Below, in pieces: positions 17,489 through 21,293 of a stretch of 64,000 bases of DNA (positions within the stretch are counted from its first letter, which is position 1; every line of letters starts with the position of its first letter). The position numbers and the translations under genes are program-made. Origin of the DNA: Schwartzia succinivorans DSM 10502. Lineage in GTDB: Bacteria; Bacillota; Negativicutes; Selenomonadales; Selenomonadaceae. Where the stretch lies: assembly GCF_900129225.1 (NCBI RefSeq), contig NZ_FQUG01000006.1:1-64000 (forward strand). The letters run 5' to 3'. Below the pieces are notes generated by a model. It was not told the origin of the DNA. It was given only the letters and a program-made list of their open reading frames with translations, and made no database searches.

Positions 17489-18244
17489 ATGAATAAAAAT
17501 AATTTATCAAAAGTGCAGCAGGAAACCTTTGACCCTGCCATACTGAACGACATTGAAGGCTACTGGAACGAACGCAGCAAGACCTTCAGCGAAACACGTA
17601 AAAAGGAAATGTCAGGTCCCGGCGGCGCCGCATGGCTGAAGCTTTTGTCGGAACATCTGCCGACGGGCAGAACCCTCAAGGTACTGGATATCGGCACAGG
17701 CGCGGGCTTCTTCGCGATTCTTCTCGCAAAGCTGGGCCATGACGTGACAGGTATCGACATGTCCGCAGACATGCTTCATCAGGCAAAGCTCAACACAGTT
17801 GCTCTCGGCGTCCGCGCGAAATTCCAAAAGATGAACGCCCAGGAAACGGACTTTGACGACAACACCTTTGATGCCATCATCAGCCGCAACCTCACGTGGA
17901 CTCTCCCCGATGCAATGGAAGCCTACCACGAGTGGCACAGAATCCTGAAGCCCGGCGGACTTCTCATGAACTTCGACGGTGACTACGGCAAGGCTGACTT
18001 CACGCGCCACGACGATAAGGAAAACGTCCACGCCAATATCCGTCAGGAGCTTGTAGACACCTGCAACCGCATCAAAAACTCCCTGCGCATCAGCACCCAC
18101 CGCCGCCCCGCGTGGGATATCGAGGTGCTGAAAAATCTCGGCATGCAGGTGGAATATGAAGAAGATATATCCCCCATTGTCTATAACGACCCTGAAATGC
18201 ACTACGACGGCATACCCCTCTTTGCCATCTACGCAGTAAAATAA
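17489..18244 (+). CDS. Class I SAM-dependent methyltransferase divergent from the ABC transporter operon
   Basis: A 251-residue methyltransferase: motif I VLDIGTGAGFFAILL (about 54-68), acidic loop TGIDMSADML, and the motif SRNLTWTLPDAME (about 134). Its C-terminus RPAWDIEVLKNLGM resembles the methyltransferase at the far end of the transporter operon. Stem and divergent promoter upstream suggest co-regulation with transport. The last 52 bp of the gene are repeated at 21228-21279, next to a terminator, showing that a 3-kb segment was inserted exactly at its stop codon. Confidence 0.88.
   Translation: MNKNNLSKVQQETFDPAILNDIEGYWNERSKTFSETRKKEMSGPGGAAWLKLLSEHLPTGRTLKVLDIGTGAGFFAILLAKLGHDVTGIDMSADMLHQAKLNTVALGVRAKFQKMNAQETDFDDNTFDAIISRNLTWTLPDAMEAYHEWHRILKPGGLLMNFDGDYGKADFTRHDDKENVHANIRQELVDTCNRIKNSLRISTHRRPAWDIEVLKNLGMQVEYEEDISPIVYNDPEMHYDGIPLFAIYAVK
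18193..18244 (+). repeat. 52-bp direct repeat, left copy (3' end of the methyltransferase gene)
   Basis: From TGAAATGCACTACGACGG to GCAGTAAAATAA this stretch matches 21228-21279 with a single C/T difference over 52 bp; similarity stops right after the stop codon. It looks like an attachment site (attL) of an integrated element. Confidence 0.85.
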
Positions 18245-18344
18245 GCTGTTATTGGTACTTTCGCAATTAAAAAACTCTCGCAACTTGCAAAAGATTTCTT
18301 TTTAACTGCCATTGACTACAGTCATCAAAAAATTTATACTTTAA

Positions 18345-18414
18345 GTGCTTGTTTGAAGGATATTCGTATCCTTAAATTTAATCCCCCTGCGTGTTGGTAG
18401 CACCAGGGGGATTT
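18345..18414. repeat. Two-hairpin motif, copy 1
   Basis: AAGGATA-TTCG-TATCCTT (18356-18373) is a perfect hairpin with a TTCG loop. It is followed by AATCCCCCTG...CAGGGGGATT (18380-18413), with an inner GTG/CAC pair and loop TTGGTAG (18394-18400). The flank GCTTGTTTGAAG and both hairpins recur at 19775-19845 with compensating changes. On the minus strand the second hairpin could also end the 18416-19729 operon. Confidence 0.65.
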
Positions 18415-18415
18415 C

Positions 18416-18715
18416 TTATTCCTCGAAGAGAAATTCACGGATTAATGCACGAAAGGACTTCCCATTTAGAAACGGCATTTCAAGTAAGTCCTTAAAATTT
18501 TCATTTGAAATAACTTCCTTGAAAGCCGGTTGTGTGACAATAGCGTACCTATGTCCAATACGGGTTACCATATACTCCTGCCCGTCATACCAAAATAATG
18601 TTTCAACTGTCAGCGGTGGATTATCCTCCCGTTCTGGCCATTCGTCCCAGCTTTGCCATTTTATATATTCATCCATTGTTATTCGAATTACGTGCTTTCC
18701 ATTGGGCCCACGCAT
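18416..18715 (-). CDS. Hypothetical protein, last gene of the island operon
   Basis: A 99-residue protein not recognised by family. It is acidic and aromatic-rich (MDEYIKWQSWDEWPERED, then LFWYDGQEYMVTRIG), with a C-terminal helix RALIREFLFEE. The ATG at 18715 has GGAGAG 6 nt upstream. It overlaps the preceding gene by 47 bp. Small overlapping partner genes of this kind are often immunity proteins or antitoxins, but nothing in the sequence proves it. Confidence 0.65.
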   Translation of the reverse strand: MRGPNGKHVIRITMDEYIKWQSWDEWPEREDNPPLTVETLFWYDGQEYMVTRIGHRYAIVTQPAFKEVISNENFKDLLEMPFLNGKSFRALIREFLFEE

Positions 18716-19106
18716 AATCTCTCCTCTCCCTCCACACATCACTGATAAGACTTGCAAGCTTCTTTTCCTTAACCGTCAGTTTTGATGCACCTTTTGGGGA
18801 ATCGTTTTCGTTGTGCTCATATCCGTGATGAATATGCGGCATCATTCCCGCATGTCCATGCTGAAGGTCAATCTGCTTTTCCTTCTTATTTGACTTGTCG
18901 TAATATGAAATATACTTCGGCTCCCCCGTAACTCTATCAAGCGTCACGTACACTCTGTTATTTGTCATGGTTTCTTTGGGAGCTTTCGTATTCCCGTTAT
19001 TAACAACCACAAATTTTATGTTTCCATATGTAAGCAGCGATGAATACTCTGACCCATATCTTTTTCCCTGTACACTCACACCGGAGCTGCTTCCTCTTCC
19101 ACCCAT
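18669..19106 (-). CDS. Phage-associated small protein with N-terminal GGRGSSSG motif and His-rich core
   Basis: A 145-residue protein starting MGGRGSSSGVS, an N-terminus common in small phage and mobile-element proteins. A His-rich segment, LQHGHAGMMPHIHHGYEH (about 81-98), resembles metal or catalytic motifs of some polymorphic-toxin domains; I cannot assign a family with certainty. It is translationally coupled to the upstream DUF4417 gene (TAATG overlap) and overlaps the downstream gene, so the three form one operon inside the repeat-bounded island. Confidence 0.65.
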   Translation of the reverse strand: MGGRGSSSGVSVQGKRYGSEYSSLLTYGNIKFVVVNNGNTKAPKETMTNNRVYVTLDRVTGEPKYISYYDKSNKKEKQIDLQHGHAGMMPHIHHGYEHNENDSPKGASKLTVKEKKLASLISDVWRERRDYAWAQWKARNSNNNG

Positions 19107-19729
19107 TACCTACCCACCTTTCCGAAGGCAGGATAATCTACGGCGATTATATTCCCTTCCATTTCCTCAAATGGTCTGCCAACGCAAAGAATCGCTTCTG
19201 GCTCAATTCTTCGAAGCATTTCTCTATATCCGGCCAAAAATTCCTCCTTTGCGTGCTTACATCCTATCATTCCTATTGCAACGGTTGACCCCTTTTCTAC
19301 TGCATCAAAGCAAAAATCATAAGACGCCTTCGTGCTCCAGCCAATTGTCGGAATAACTTTAACTCCCTGACTTTGCCAAAACGCACCGCACCATCTGCTG
19401 TGACCAACACTCTCTATCTGACGCCAATAATTCATGTCTGCGTAAGCAGAGAAATCCGGAGTGCACGCAAACATGTATTGTGAAACCTTTTCCAAAAATT
19501 TCTCCGGATTATTATAGGCTGCTAAAAATTTATAGTCATCTACAAAAAAATGCAGTCCCTTTTTCCTGTTTTCCTCGCTATCATTATATTTTGCGTCAGT
19601 TGCGGAAATGAGCCTAATTTTGAACAAATCAACGTCCTGTTTCCTTATACGCGGAAATTGGAATTTCCCCTCTGTTTCAAATTCATTTCGAAGGAACAGA
19701 GGATTACTACGGTAATCTTTTGATTTCAT
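19106..19729 (-). CDS. DUF4417 family protein
   Basis: A 207-residue protein that fits DUF4417, a family frequent in phages and mobile elements with unknown activity: RNEFETEGKFQFPRIR at the start, HFFVDDYKFLAAYNNPEKF in the middle and IGMIGCKHAKEEFLAGY later. ATG 19729 was chosen because GTGAGG lies 9 nt upstream. The leader can form competing hairpins over this ribosome site (19739-19800). First gene of the island operon. Confidence 0.8.
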   Translation of the reverse strand: MKSKDYRSNPLFLRNEFETEGKFQFPRIRKQDVDLFKIRLISATDAKYNDSEENRKKGLHFFVDDYKFLAAYNNPEKFLEKVSQYMFACTPDFSAYADMNYWRQIESVGHSRWCGAFWQSQGVKVIPTIGWSTKASYDFCFDAVEKGSTVAIGMIGCKHAKEEFLAGYREMLRRIEPEAILCVGRPFEEMEGNIIAVDYPAFGKVGR

Positions 19730-19738
19730 ATTTATTTT

Positions 19739-19800
19739 CCTCACTTTCTTACGTGAGGATACGAAACTCAACTGCTTGTTTGAAGAATATCCGTATCCTC
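19739..19800 (-). promoter_or_regulatory. DUF4417 leader with mutually exclusive pairings over the ribosome site
   Basis: Reading the minus strand: segment B (GAGGATACG, 19792-19800) can pair with A (TATTCT, 19784-19789) or, perfectly over 9 bp, with C (CGTATCCTC, 19755-19763). C also contains CCTCAC, which pairs perfectly with the ribosome site GTGAGG (19739-19744). A-B pairing would free C to hide the ribosome site; B-C pairing would expose it. Confidence 0.55.
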
Positions 19801-19845
19801 AAATTTGTTGAATAAACCCTGCTATTGGTAGTAGCGAAGTTTATC
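19775..19845. repeat. Two-hairpin motif, copy 2
   Basis: Shares the GCTTGTTTGAAG flank and the arrangement of copy 1. First hairpin: AGAATA/TATCCT around TCCG. Second: ATAAAC...GTTTAT outer stem (19812-19844), inner stem GCTA/TAGC and the identical loop TTGGTAG (19825-19831). Both stems differ in sequence from copy 1 but remain paired. Confidence 0.65.
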
Positions 19846-19932
19846 TATGCCCAGGTATTGCCGTATTTCAACCCCCTTTCTCCGTAGCTTTACACACCAA
19901 ACAAATAAATCACATAGCCGCTCACCTCCTAA

Positions 19933-21027
19933 TCAATTTCTTATTATTCCCAACAAATCATAGTAGTAAAATGTCCTGTTTCTCTGTTTGCCATTTGTAT
20001 ATAAGATTTTGTTCTCCAGAAGGATATTTAGGAATCTGTTCAATGTAGCCGTTGGCATCTTCAGCATATTGGAAAGCTGTTTCACAGTCGTAACGGGGCA
20101 TTTGTAAAGTGAGGTTATCACTTGAACAATATTAGGAGAATTAGATTTTTCCATCGCTAAGCTCAAGTGCTTTTCATACAGATTATTTATTTCTGAAATA
20201 ATCATTATGTACTTGTCGCACTGCTTGGCTACCGTCTCTAGGAAAAACTTAATCCACTCGTTCCAATCATTATTTGTTCTTATATTCGTGAGCAATGTAT
20301 AGTATTTGTGTTTGTCGTGTTCCAATGCCTCACTGATAAAAAAGCACGGCAAATCTATCTGCTTCTTATAGAACAAATACATCGGAATAAGCATTCTGCC
20401 TACACGCCCGTTACCGTCCATGAAAGGATGTATCGTTTCAAACTGCGCGTGTATAATCGCAGTACGTACTAACGGTCTGTACGAATCATTAGGGTTATTC
20501 ATATATTCAATTAAATTCGCCATCAGCTCATGAACTTCTTCCGCAGCCGGCGGAATAAACGTAATTGTATGCACGGGATCATTTTTCCCTATATAATTTT
20601 GCTTCACTCTATACTTTCCAATAAGCTCTGGTTTTCTTACATTTCCACGCATCAATGCTATATGCATCTCATAGAAAAAATCGTCAGTGAATTTTTCTCT
20701 CGCAAGTATCCTATACCCCAATGTCGTTGCATAATGATAATTCAACACTTCATTCAGATTTTGATCATTTGTTTTTTCTTCCGTCTGATATGTGAGCACA
20801 CCGTCCAAAGTTGCCTGAGTTCCTTCAATTGCAGAGGATGCTAATGCCTCCTTCTGCTGCAGCGTTGGCATAAACCACTCACTACCAAGTTTGCTGTCAT
20901 GAATTTTTTCCTTATATACTTCCAGTTTAGCTGTAGCATCAATTAATTCTTCCACAAAATACGAATAATCTATTACTCCGCTAGGCAAAGGCAATTTACT
21001 TGCTTTGTAAGACTCATTCATCAGCAT
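19933..21027 (-). CDS. Fic family protein (AMPylase-type) with class II inhibitory motif
   Basis: A 364-residue Fic protein. The catalytic motif HPFMDGNGRVGR (about 188-199) is complete, with the His and the phosphate-binding NGR. SSAIEGTQ near residue 55 matches the S/T-xxx-E-G/N inhibitory helix of class II Fic proteins, so the enzyme is probably self-inhibited. The C-terminus (VKQLSNMLKMPTATLNRFL) looks like a winged-helix domain, typical of stand-alone Fic proteins. ATG 21027 has AAAGGAGG just upstream. It lies alone inside the repeat-bounded island. Confidence 0.93.
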   Translation of the reverse strand: MLMNESYKASKLPLPSGVIDYSYFVEELIDATAKLEVYKEKIHDSKLGSEWFMPTLQQKEALASSAIEGTQATLDGVLTYQTEEKTNDQNLNEVLNYHYATTLGYRILAREKFTDDFFYEMHIALMRGNVRKPELIGKYRVKQNYIGKNDPVHTITFIPPAAEEVHELMANLIEYMNNPNDSYRPLVRTAIIHAQFETIHPFMDGNGRVGRMLIPMYLFYKKQIDLPCFFISEALEHDKHKYYTLLTNIRTNNDWNEWIKFFLETVAKQCDKYIMIISEINNLYEKHLSLAMEKSNSPNIVQVITSLYKCPVTTVKQLSNMLKMPTATLNRFLNILLENKILYTNGKQRNRTFYYYDLLGIIRN

Positions 21028-21227: not shown

Positions 21228-21279
21228 TGAAATGCACTACGACGGCATACCCCTCTTTGCCATCTATGCAGTAAAATAA
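21228..21279 (+). repeat. 52-bp direct repeat, right copy
   Basis: Repeats the last 52 bp of the methyltransferase gene (18193-18244) with one mismatch, but without the rest of the gene. It is followed by the terminator that would have served that gene. Likely attR of the 3-kb island. The remainder of 21076-21428 shows no gene. Confidence 0.85.
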
Positions 21280-21293
21280 ACTCTTATCCCTTC

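Follow-up and report, generated by a model that had tools for sequence, protein, structure and literature searches.

The window, i.e. the complete 64,000-nt stretch of Schwartzia succinivorans DSM 10502 analysed here, contains an island with genes for a Fic protein, DUF4417, MGG and ORF3 (Table 1). In agreement with the 3-kb island described in an earlier note on this DNA, the unit is bracketed by direct repeats of 60 nt that are 95% identical and enclose 3035 bp, and its G+C content is 35-44% compared to 53-54% in the adjoining methyltransferase gene. No integrase was found among the island frames examined. Searches of phages and plasmids returned no DNA similarity to the island, the leader of DUF4417 alone matched just four phage records, at chance level, and the exact pattern had no match in viral contigs.

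Table 1. Coordinates of the island genes, leader segments and predicted RNA elements in the window.
Feature	Position	Strand	Remarks
Island left boundary repeat	18193-18252	+	3' end of methyltransferase gene
Predicted antisense RNA promoter	18312-18340	+	TTGACT 18312-18317, 17 nt, TATACT 18335-18340; 10/12 matches
Predicted antisense sRNA, ~75 nt	18346-18420	+	5' part complementary to A; fold z -5.13
Predicted intrinsic terminator hairpin of the sRNA	18380-18413	+	Loop UUGGUAG; U-rich end overlaps ORF3 stop codon
ORF3	18416-18715	-	Cassette gene 3
MGG (MGGRG protein)	18669-19106	-	PHROG 9479; behind DUF4417 in related cassettes
DUF4417 protein (PF14386), 207 aa	19106-19729	-	Operon gene 1; E 1e-51
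Segment D	19724-19744	-	Shine-Dalgarno sequence (SD) GTGAGG 19744-19739 and start codon ATG 19729-19727
Segment B, TTTCGTATCCTCAC	19753-19766	-	Contains anti-Shine-Dalgarno; pairs with A or with SD/start codon
Predicted antisense target segment	19770-19806	-	37-nt repeat, 89% identical to 18343-18379; based on repeat and duplex energy
Segment A (pre-emptor), GAGGATACG(GA) / GAGGATACGGA	19790-19800	-	Pairs with B; under predicted antisense RNA
Hairpin H0	19812-19844	-	7-nt loop CUACCAA (19831-19825); based on folding and covariation; putative kissing site of antisense RNA
Fic protein gene	19933-21024	-	Upstream of leader; relatives have a Fic or ImmA-type peptidase gene here
Island right boundary repeat	21228-21287	+	Copy of same methyltransferase gene end

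A genome scan with five DUF4417 proteins confirmed at least 420 relatives among the 591 pattern matches listed. In the best 80 of these loci, which were used for comparison, MGG follows DUF4417 in 79 (all but L110), with ORF3 next in most, and a recognised gene for an ImmA-type peptidase or a Fic protein precedes DUF4417 in 37. L109 and the second DUF4417 present at L054 were dropped as partial matches, L083 was excluded from analysis A4, and relatives from viral contigs and mycobacteriophages, L117 apart, entered the protein alignment only. The nearest relative among the matches listed is from Lachnospiraceae (73%), and within 189 genomes of the window's order the leader motif occurs in the window's own genome only, which together suggest that the cassette arrived from elsewhere. 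Direct repeats surround the cassette at 10 of the 62 related loci with enough flanking sequence, several of them 2.7-3.1 kb apart; comparable flanking repeats (61-424 bp, units of 2.7-3.5 kb) were seen at L037, L051, L080, L085, L092 and L098, and at L018 related repeats of ~60-120 nt (GGGTACGAAGGAGGCC; 110-240 and 2868-2990) lie around the entire XRE-ImmA-DUF4417 cassette. We also observed MGG-ORF3 pairs two or three times behind DUF4417 at L064, L071, L111 and L054, resembling toxin/immunity arrays, and a second, distant DUF4417 (36%) with a different leader in the genome of L004 (G000:C13:872-1351).

The leader occupies the space between the Fic and DUF4417 genes and is composed of H0, segment A, a conserved stretch (CAAACAAGC), segment B, the SD and, 9 nt after GTGAGG, the ATG. 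Segment B has two alternative partners, namely A or the DUF4417 start codon with its ribosome site. The local partner of A is TATTCTTC on the minus strand, and A-B form 9 perfect pairs, or 11 with one G-U included. The B-D pairing comprises CCTCAC/GTGAGG, lengthened by UUUCGUAU/AUAUGAAA across the start codon. That four segments can engage in two mutually exclusive pairings, as first noticed from the bare letters, is confirmed on the minus strand, because pieces of the leader fold far better than their shuffles, with z-scores from -4.1 to -5.8 (200 shuffles; -4.15 for a 106-nt piece, -5.82 for the 36-nt SD hairpin and -4.10 for the 61-nt A-B piece) and 0/200 shuffles as stable as any of the three, while the entire 205-nt leader reaches merely -1.65. 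A score for the A-B-D triple in the window likewise exceeds all 30 shuffles (z 3.4).

The reading of these pairings as a two-state switch holds in that both exist, and has to be corrected as to when each is populated. In the modelled absence of the antisense RNA described below, the probability of A-B in the window is 0.99 if the transcript ends at B and 0.00 for the full-length leader, so that at equilibrium the hidden-SD form is predicted to be preferred even without antisense RNA, and A-B dominates only while the RNA ends at B. Across 21 leaders the mean probability of A-B is 0.79 for transcripts ending at B and 0.56 once the ribosome site has been made. Because the full leader already hides the SD at equilibrium, the 'on' state of the window, and of part of the family, must be kinetic or co-transcriptional, and we infer from the folding models that the open state would be held kinetically while ribosomes read the nascent RNA.

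Leaders of the relatives fall into two classes. Class I, comprising the window and 21 further loci, shares sequence, i.e. the CUACCAA hairpin, GGGGATACGAATGCCCTCCAAACAAG and the complement of A. Class II leaders are unlike one another in sequence, and many keep the complementarity of A-B versus B-ribosome site. In the triple A-B-D test, 29 of 81 leaders beat all 30 shuffles and 43 were matched at most once, compared to 4/58 and 10/58, respectively, for control leaders of other genes at the same loci, where, as in all counts and statistics on relatives given here, the loci are not independent of one another. The remaining 38/81 leaders were unremarkable, some (e.g. L107 and L115) lacking a clear leader. 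Over 21 class I leaders, the H0 stem has changes on both sides in 5/5 pairs around a conserved loop, and 90.4% of cells are paired in the A-B helix. The covariation score of H0 plus A-B is 0.387 versus a shuffled mean of 0.220, with 0/500 shuffles reaching it and every slid version lower, a count that is tilted in favour of the structure since the structure was taken from the window, and for which class I members had been chosen visually and through a CAAACAAG-like motif in a leader search that was not blind. RNAalifold on a MAFFT alignment recovers the A-B helix only. The comparison with homologous leaders proposed at the outset, in which a lack of conserved pairing would have counted against the switch, finds the pairing kept in the triple test, in covariation and in SD opening (see below).

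A component that the first description of the leader had missed is a second copy of the motif behind ORF3. A covariance model (R1), built on 21 class I leaders and searched over 82 sources, matches 22 leaders and, in 21 of these 22, a second copy in the same orientation at the ORF3 stop codon (18328-18416 in the window); at the exception, L079, the contig ends before the position of copy 2, with a second copy present on a different contig of that genome. Two further matches are weak and on the other strand. In 20 genomes searched whole, two copies are found in each, or four where the genome has two cassettes. On the strand opposite to copy 2, a promoter with 10-12 of 12 consensus matches is present in 21/21 cases (the window and 20 loci), compared to 7-9 matches in the regions of copy 1, and is followed by ~70-90 nt that end in a hairpin, in most cases with a T-run at the stop codon of ORF3. 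Taken alone, the window promoter is not significant (5 sites found versus 5.2 expected; p 0.06) and the window terminator is not called by a simple terminator scan, and hence the weight of both comes from their place and conservation. Based on these sequence features, the second copy of class I is a predicted antisense RNA gene on the opposite strand. Two earlier candidates were dropped upon finding this promoter and terminator. One took the 37-nt repeat for a site of recombination or the end of an element, and the other proposed that H0 and CAAACAAG form an H-type pseudoknot aptamer.

The two copies might instead be the ends of a mobile element, comparable to the hairpins at IS200/IS605 ends, with the ribosome-site pairing incidental. 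Their direct orientation on either side of the three-gene unit, their number of exactly two per cassette and the presence of repeat-bounded islands fit such an arrangement. However, the island boundary repeats lie outside both copies and beyond Fic, the promoter and terminator are found on copy 2 and not on copy 1, model R1 finds no copy behind ORF3 in class II cassettes, and SD access is predicted to depend on pairing in both classes. We consider the element-end explanation most improbable, and favour an antisense RNA gene.

The predicted antisense RNA matches its target closely. In the window, the duplex is calculated at -75.3 kcal/mol, compared to -27.0 +/- 4.1 kcal/mol for 300 shuffled antisense RNAs (best -43.5), and the loops UUGGUAG of the sRNA and CUACCAA of the leader are complementary. 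Variant leader loops, CUACCGA at L038 and CGACCAA at L040/L041, are mirrored in copy 2 of the same locus; overall the loops of both copies agree in 20/21 cases, the remaining leader loop (L083) being outside the stretch read. Within a locus, 24.1 positions of the 27-nt cores agree between copy 1 and copy 2, compared to 20.8 between loci and 21.0 between copy 1 and copy 1 of other loci, and 0/20000 permutations reach the within-locus agreement. Similarly, the mean duplex energy is -65.2 kcal/mol for cognate and -52.7 kcal/mol for non-cognate combinations, with the cognate duplex ranked first in 8 cases and among the best five of 20 in 19/20, in a test run without L083 and without L079, whose contig has no copy 2. 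The agreement between the copies could stem from gene conversion instead of selection for pairing.

These data bear on the suggestion of the earlier note that the element is a translational riboswitch or an RNA-controlled leader. A translational switch is indeed most likely, in its RNA-controlled form, while the data give no reason to invoke a metabolite riboswitch. In that scheme, an aptamer made of H0 and the CCCUCCAAACAAG stretch would let a ligand select A-B or B-D, which agrees with the strongly conserved, unpaired-looking bases of class I and with the presence of a translational expression platform. Yet the bases that are conserved coincide with the complement of the predicted antisense RNA (18.35-18.42 kb, other strand) and vary with it in the same locus, class II keeps the logic with unrelated sequences, and in the 20 fully searched genomes the motif is confined to the surroundings of this cassette. 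No Rfam 15 family reaches its gathering score in the window, the leader, the copy-2 region or the leaders of 12 related loci, where the sole matches are SRP RNA and tRNA outside the leaders. A ligand is hence not needed to account for the conservation, and we give the metabolite riboswitch hardly any credence.

Occupation of the antisense site is predicted to close the ribosome site. In the window, the cost of opening the SD rises from 4.2 kcal/mol in the free leader to 11.2 kcal/mol with the antisense site masked. Masking was applied to 22 class I and 57 class II leaders, those without a usable promoter candidate being excluded, and shifts the cost by a mean of +3.36 kcal/mol in class I (above +1 in 17/22, below -1 in 1/22, L040) and +2.61 kcal/mol in class II (above +1 in 38/57, below -1 in 3/57). 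The same mask on shuffled leaders averages ~-0.1 (Wilcoxon p 4e-12); in the remaining leaders of both classes, masking changes SD opening little. The antisense RNA could alternatively work chiefly by attenuating transcription or through cleavage by RNase III, with a secondary role for the SD hairpin. The long, near-perfect duplex of the window would suit cleavage, and pT181 and pIP501 employ the same pre-emptor logic for termination (PMC5703833). Against this, the B-D hairpin of the window spans the SD and start codon without a U-run behind it, and the A-B-D logic is conserved, making cleavage or attenuation as the principal route unlikely. Cleavage by RNase III may nonetheless add to the effect of the SD hiding that we favour.

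In class II, the antisense gene appears to lie inside the leader itself. Opposite-strand promoters with 11 or 12 matches are present in 13/59 class II leaders, compared to 0/59 on the sense strand and 0.5% of shuffles, and terminators in 49/59, compared to 17/59 and 3.4%, respectively. An antisense promoter of at least 10/12 together with a terminator is found in 21/59 class II leaders versus 0/58 control leaders of other genes. Where the case is clear, the promoter is placed around B and its -10 box falls between A and B, and the predicted RNA hence covers A and H0 and not B. As a separate observation, class II leaders such as L052 and L018 have a short frame with a strong ribosome site ~170-210 nt before DUF4417, with a recurring ATTGATTGTA-like start directly after the ImmA stop.

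Short frames with good ribosome sites are found ahead of the leader, both in the window (GTG at 19925) and at many class II loci, and raise the question of a translation-sensing leader peptide, in which ribosomes on the upstream frame would choose between A-B and B-D. These frames, however, vary in sequence and distance and stop before A, that of the window having 11 codons and ending ~90 nt before A, and control by a leader peptide is thus very improbable.

Based on the combined evidence from sequence comparison and modelling, we propose, with a probability of roughly 85%, that an antisense RNA acts on the leader and turns DUF4417 translation off by hiding the SD. During transcription of the leader, A would take B, keeping B from the ribosome site, and DUF4417 would be translated. 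The ~75-nt RNA, starting on the plus strand at ~18346, past the last gene, would make contact with the CUACCAA loop of H0 through its UUGGUAG loop and then pair with segment A and the CAAACAAG stretch. With A occupied, B would be freed to close over the SD and start codon, and the genes beyond DUF4417 would perhaps be switched as well, by coupling.

Antisense RNAs that restrain the translation of mobile-element or damage-induced genes include SymR of SymE/SymR, RNA-OUT of IS10 RNA-IN/RNA-OUT and art200 of IS200, which act by direct SD blocking. Those systems concern other genes, and their direct blocking is unlike the induced SD hiding proposed here. A closer parallel is the staphylococcal plasmid pSK41, for which PMC5703833 describes an RNAI of ~80 nt, complementary to the rep leader ~100 nt before the start; upon binding, it is proposed to induce a stem-loop in which the ribosome site is hidden. 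The DUF4417 system is alike in that a predicted antisense RNA (judged by complementarity, promoter and terminator) can pair with the leader ahead of the ribosome site, and in that an SD-freeing pairing, supported by prediction and covariation, is exclusive with an SD-hiding stem-loop. It differs in its target gene, which is DUF4417 (PF14386 being the sole match) instead of a replication initiator, and, in the window and class I, in the RNA gene, which lies behind ORF3, 1.4 kb away in the window, whereas RNAI is counter-transcribed from the leader; class II, with its RNA gene inside the leader, matches the counter-transcription of pSK41.

According to PMC5703833, pT181 repC and pIP501 repR share the arrangement of a pre-emptor A-B versus a 3' stem-loop, with the antisense RNA taking the pre-emptor. 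There, however, the outcome is transcription termination, while here no terminator is present and the stem-loop holds the SD and start codon. With pIP501 repR goes an XRE-type protein (PMC5703833), and one is also found upstream in the relative L018. The par locus of pAD1 (PMC4147584) resembles class I in its direct-repeat arrangement: in the pair RNA I/RNA II, the antisense RNA runs convergently from the unit's 3' end, and direct repeats make it complementary to the toxin mRNA. Its toxin is a small hydrophobic peptide and its transcripts overlap at a shared terminator (PMC4147584), whereas here a 207-aa protein is encoded and two more genes lie between. Since the protein under control here belongs neither with the Rep proteins nor with the small toxic peptides, and the RNA gene of class I lies behind the operon, we do not assign the system to the pT181, pSK41 or pAD1 par types.

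Nor does it conform to the toxin-antitoxin types I and III. Antisense repression of translation, as type I systems need, is a prediction in the case of DUF4417, and the product is a 207-aa predicted TIM-barrel-like protein, not a small, usually hydrophobic peptide as in par/Fst or hok/sok. With respect to type III (ToxIN), one copy is sense and the other is read antisense, and no ToxN match was found. The structure model of DUF4417 (pLDDT 89.9) is TIM-barrel-like, and its predicted fold resembles TGT/DpdA barrels, with VIA Z 9.1 to DpdA 7ui4 (166 aligned, 3.8 A), Z 8.2-9.0 to tRNA-guanine transglycosylase (TGT) and a phage queuine tRNA-ribosyltransferase in BFVD at E 3.9e-3; in the PDB, the best Foldseek match has E 0.022, with none at 0.001. 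The PHROG label of the family is 'nuclease', whereas the predicted fold is nearest TGT/DpdA. At L018, the XRE and ImmA-type neighbours have weak matches to CapH and CapP, regulators of CBASS operons. DUF4417 of phages is fused to ParB-CTPase folds (PMC12704722), and DpdB, a ParB-type protein, is said to accompany DpdA (PMC6392294), a shared ParB connection that may serve as a lead only. A more speculative, and in our view rather doubtful, extension is that DUF4417-MGG-ORF3 constitutes a novel type of toxin or anti-phage module whose TGT/DpdA-like enzyme would be kept silent by an antisense RNA serving as antitoxin. The neighbouring XRE-ImmA pair, or Fic, would set when transcription outruns the RNA, and the module would travel as 3-kb integrase-free islands. 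The RNA gene would have jumped between cis (class II) and trans (class I), and both copies would from then on have had to co-evolve.

In conclusion, the locus is best read as a new pair of RNAs that would work by a known mechanism in a new context. Our literature search returned nothing joining antisense RNA with PF14386, nor XRE/ImmA with antisense, and the novelty rests on this search. An anonymous leader thereby becomes a testable two-RNA switch, and DUF4417, a widespread family with at least 420 confirmed relatives among the 591 matches listed, gains a regulatory logic that is normally reserved for dangerous or dosage-critical genes, i.e. plasmid replication starters, transposases and toxins. 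With cis and trans forms side by side, the family also offers a view of an antisense RNA becoming trans-encoded.
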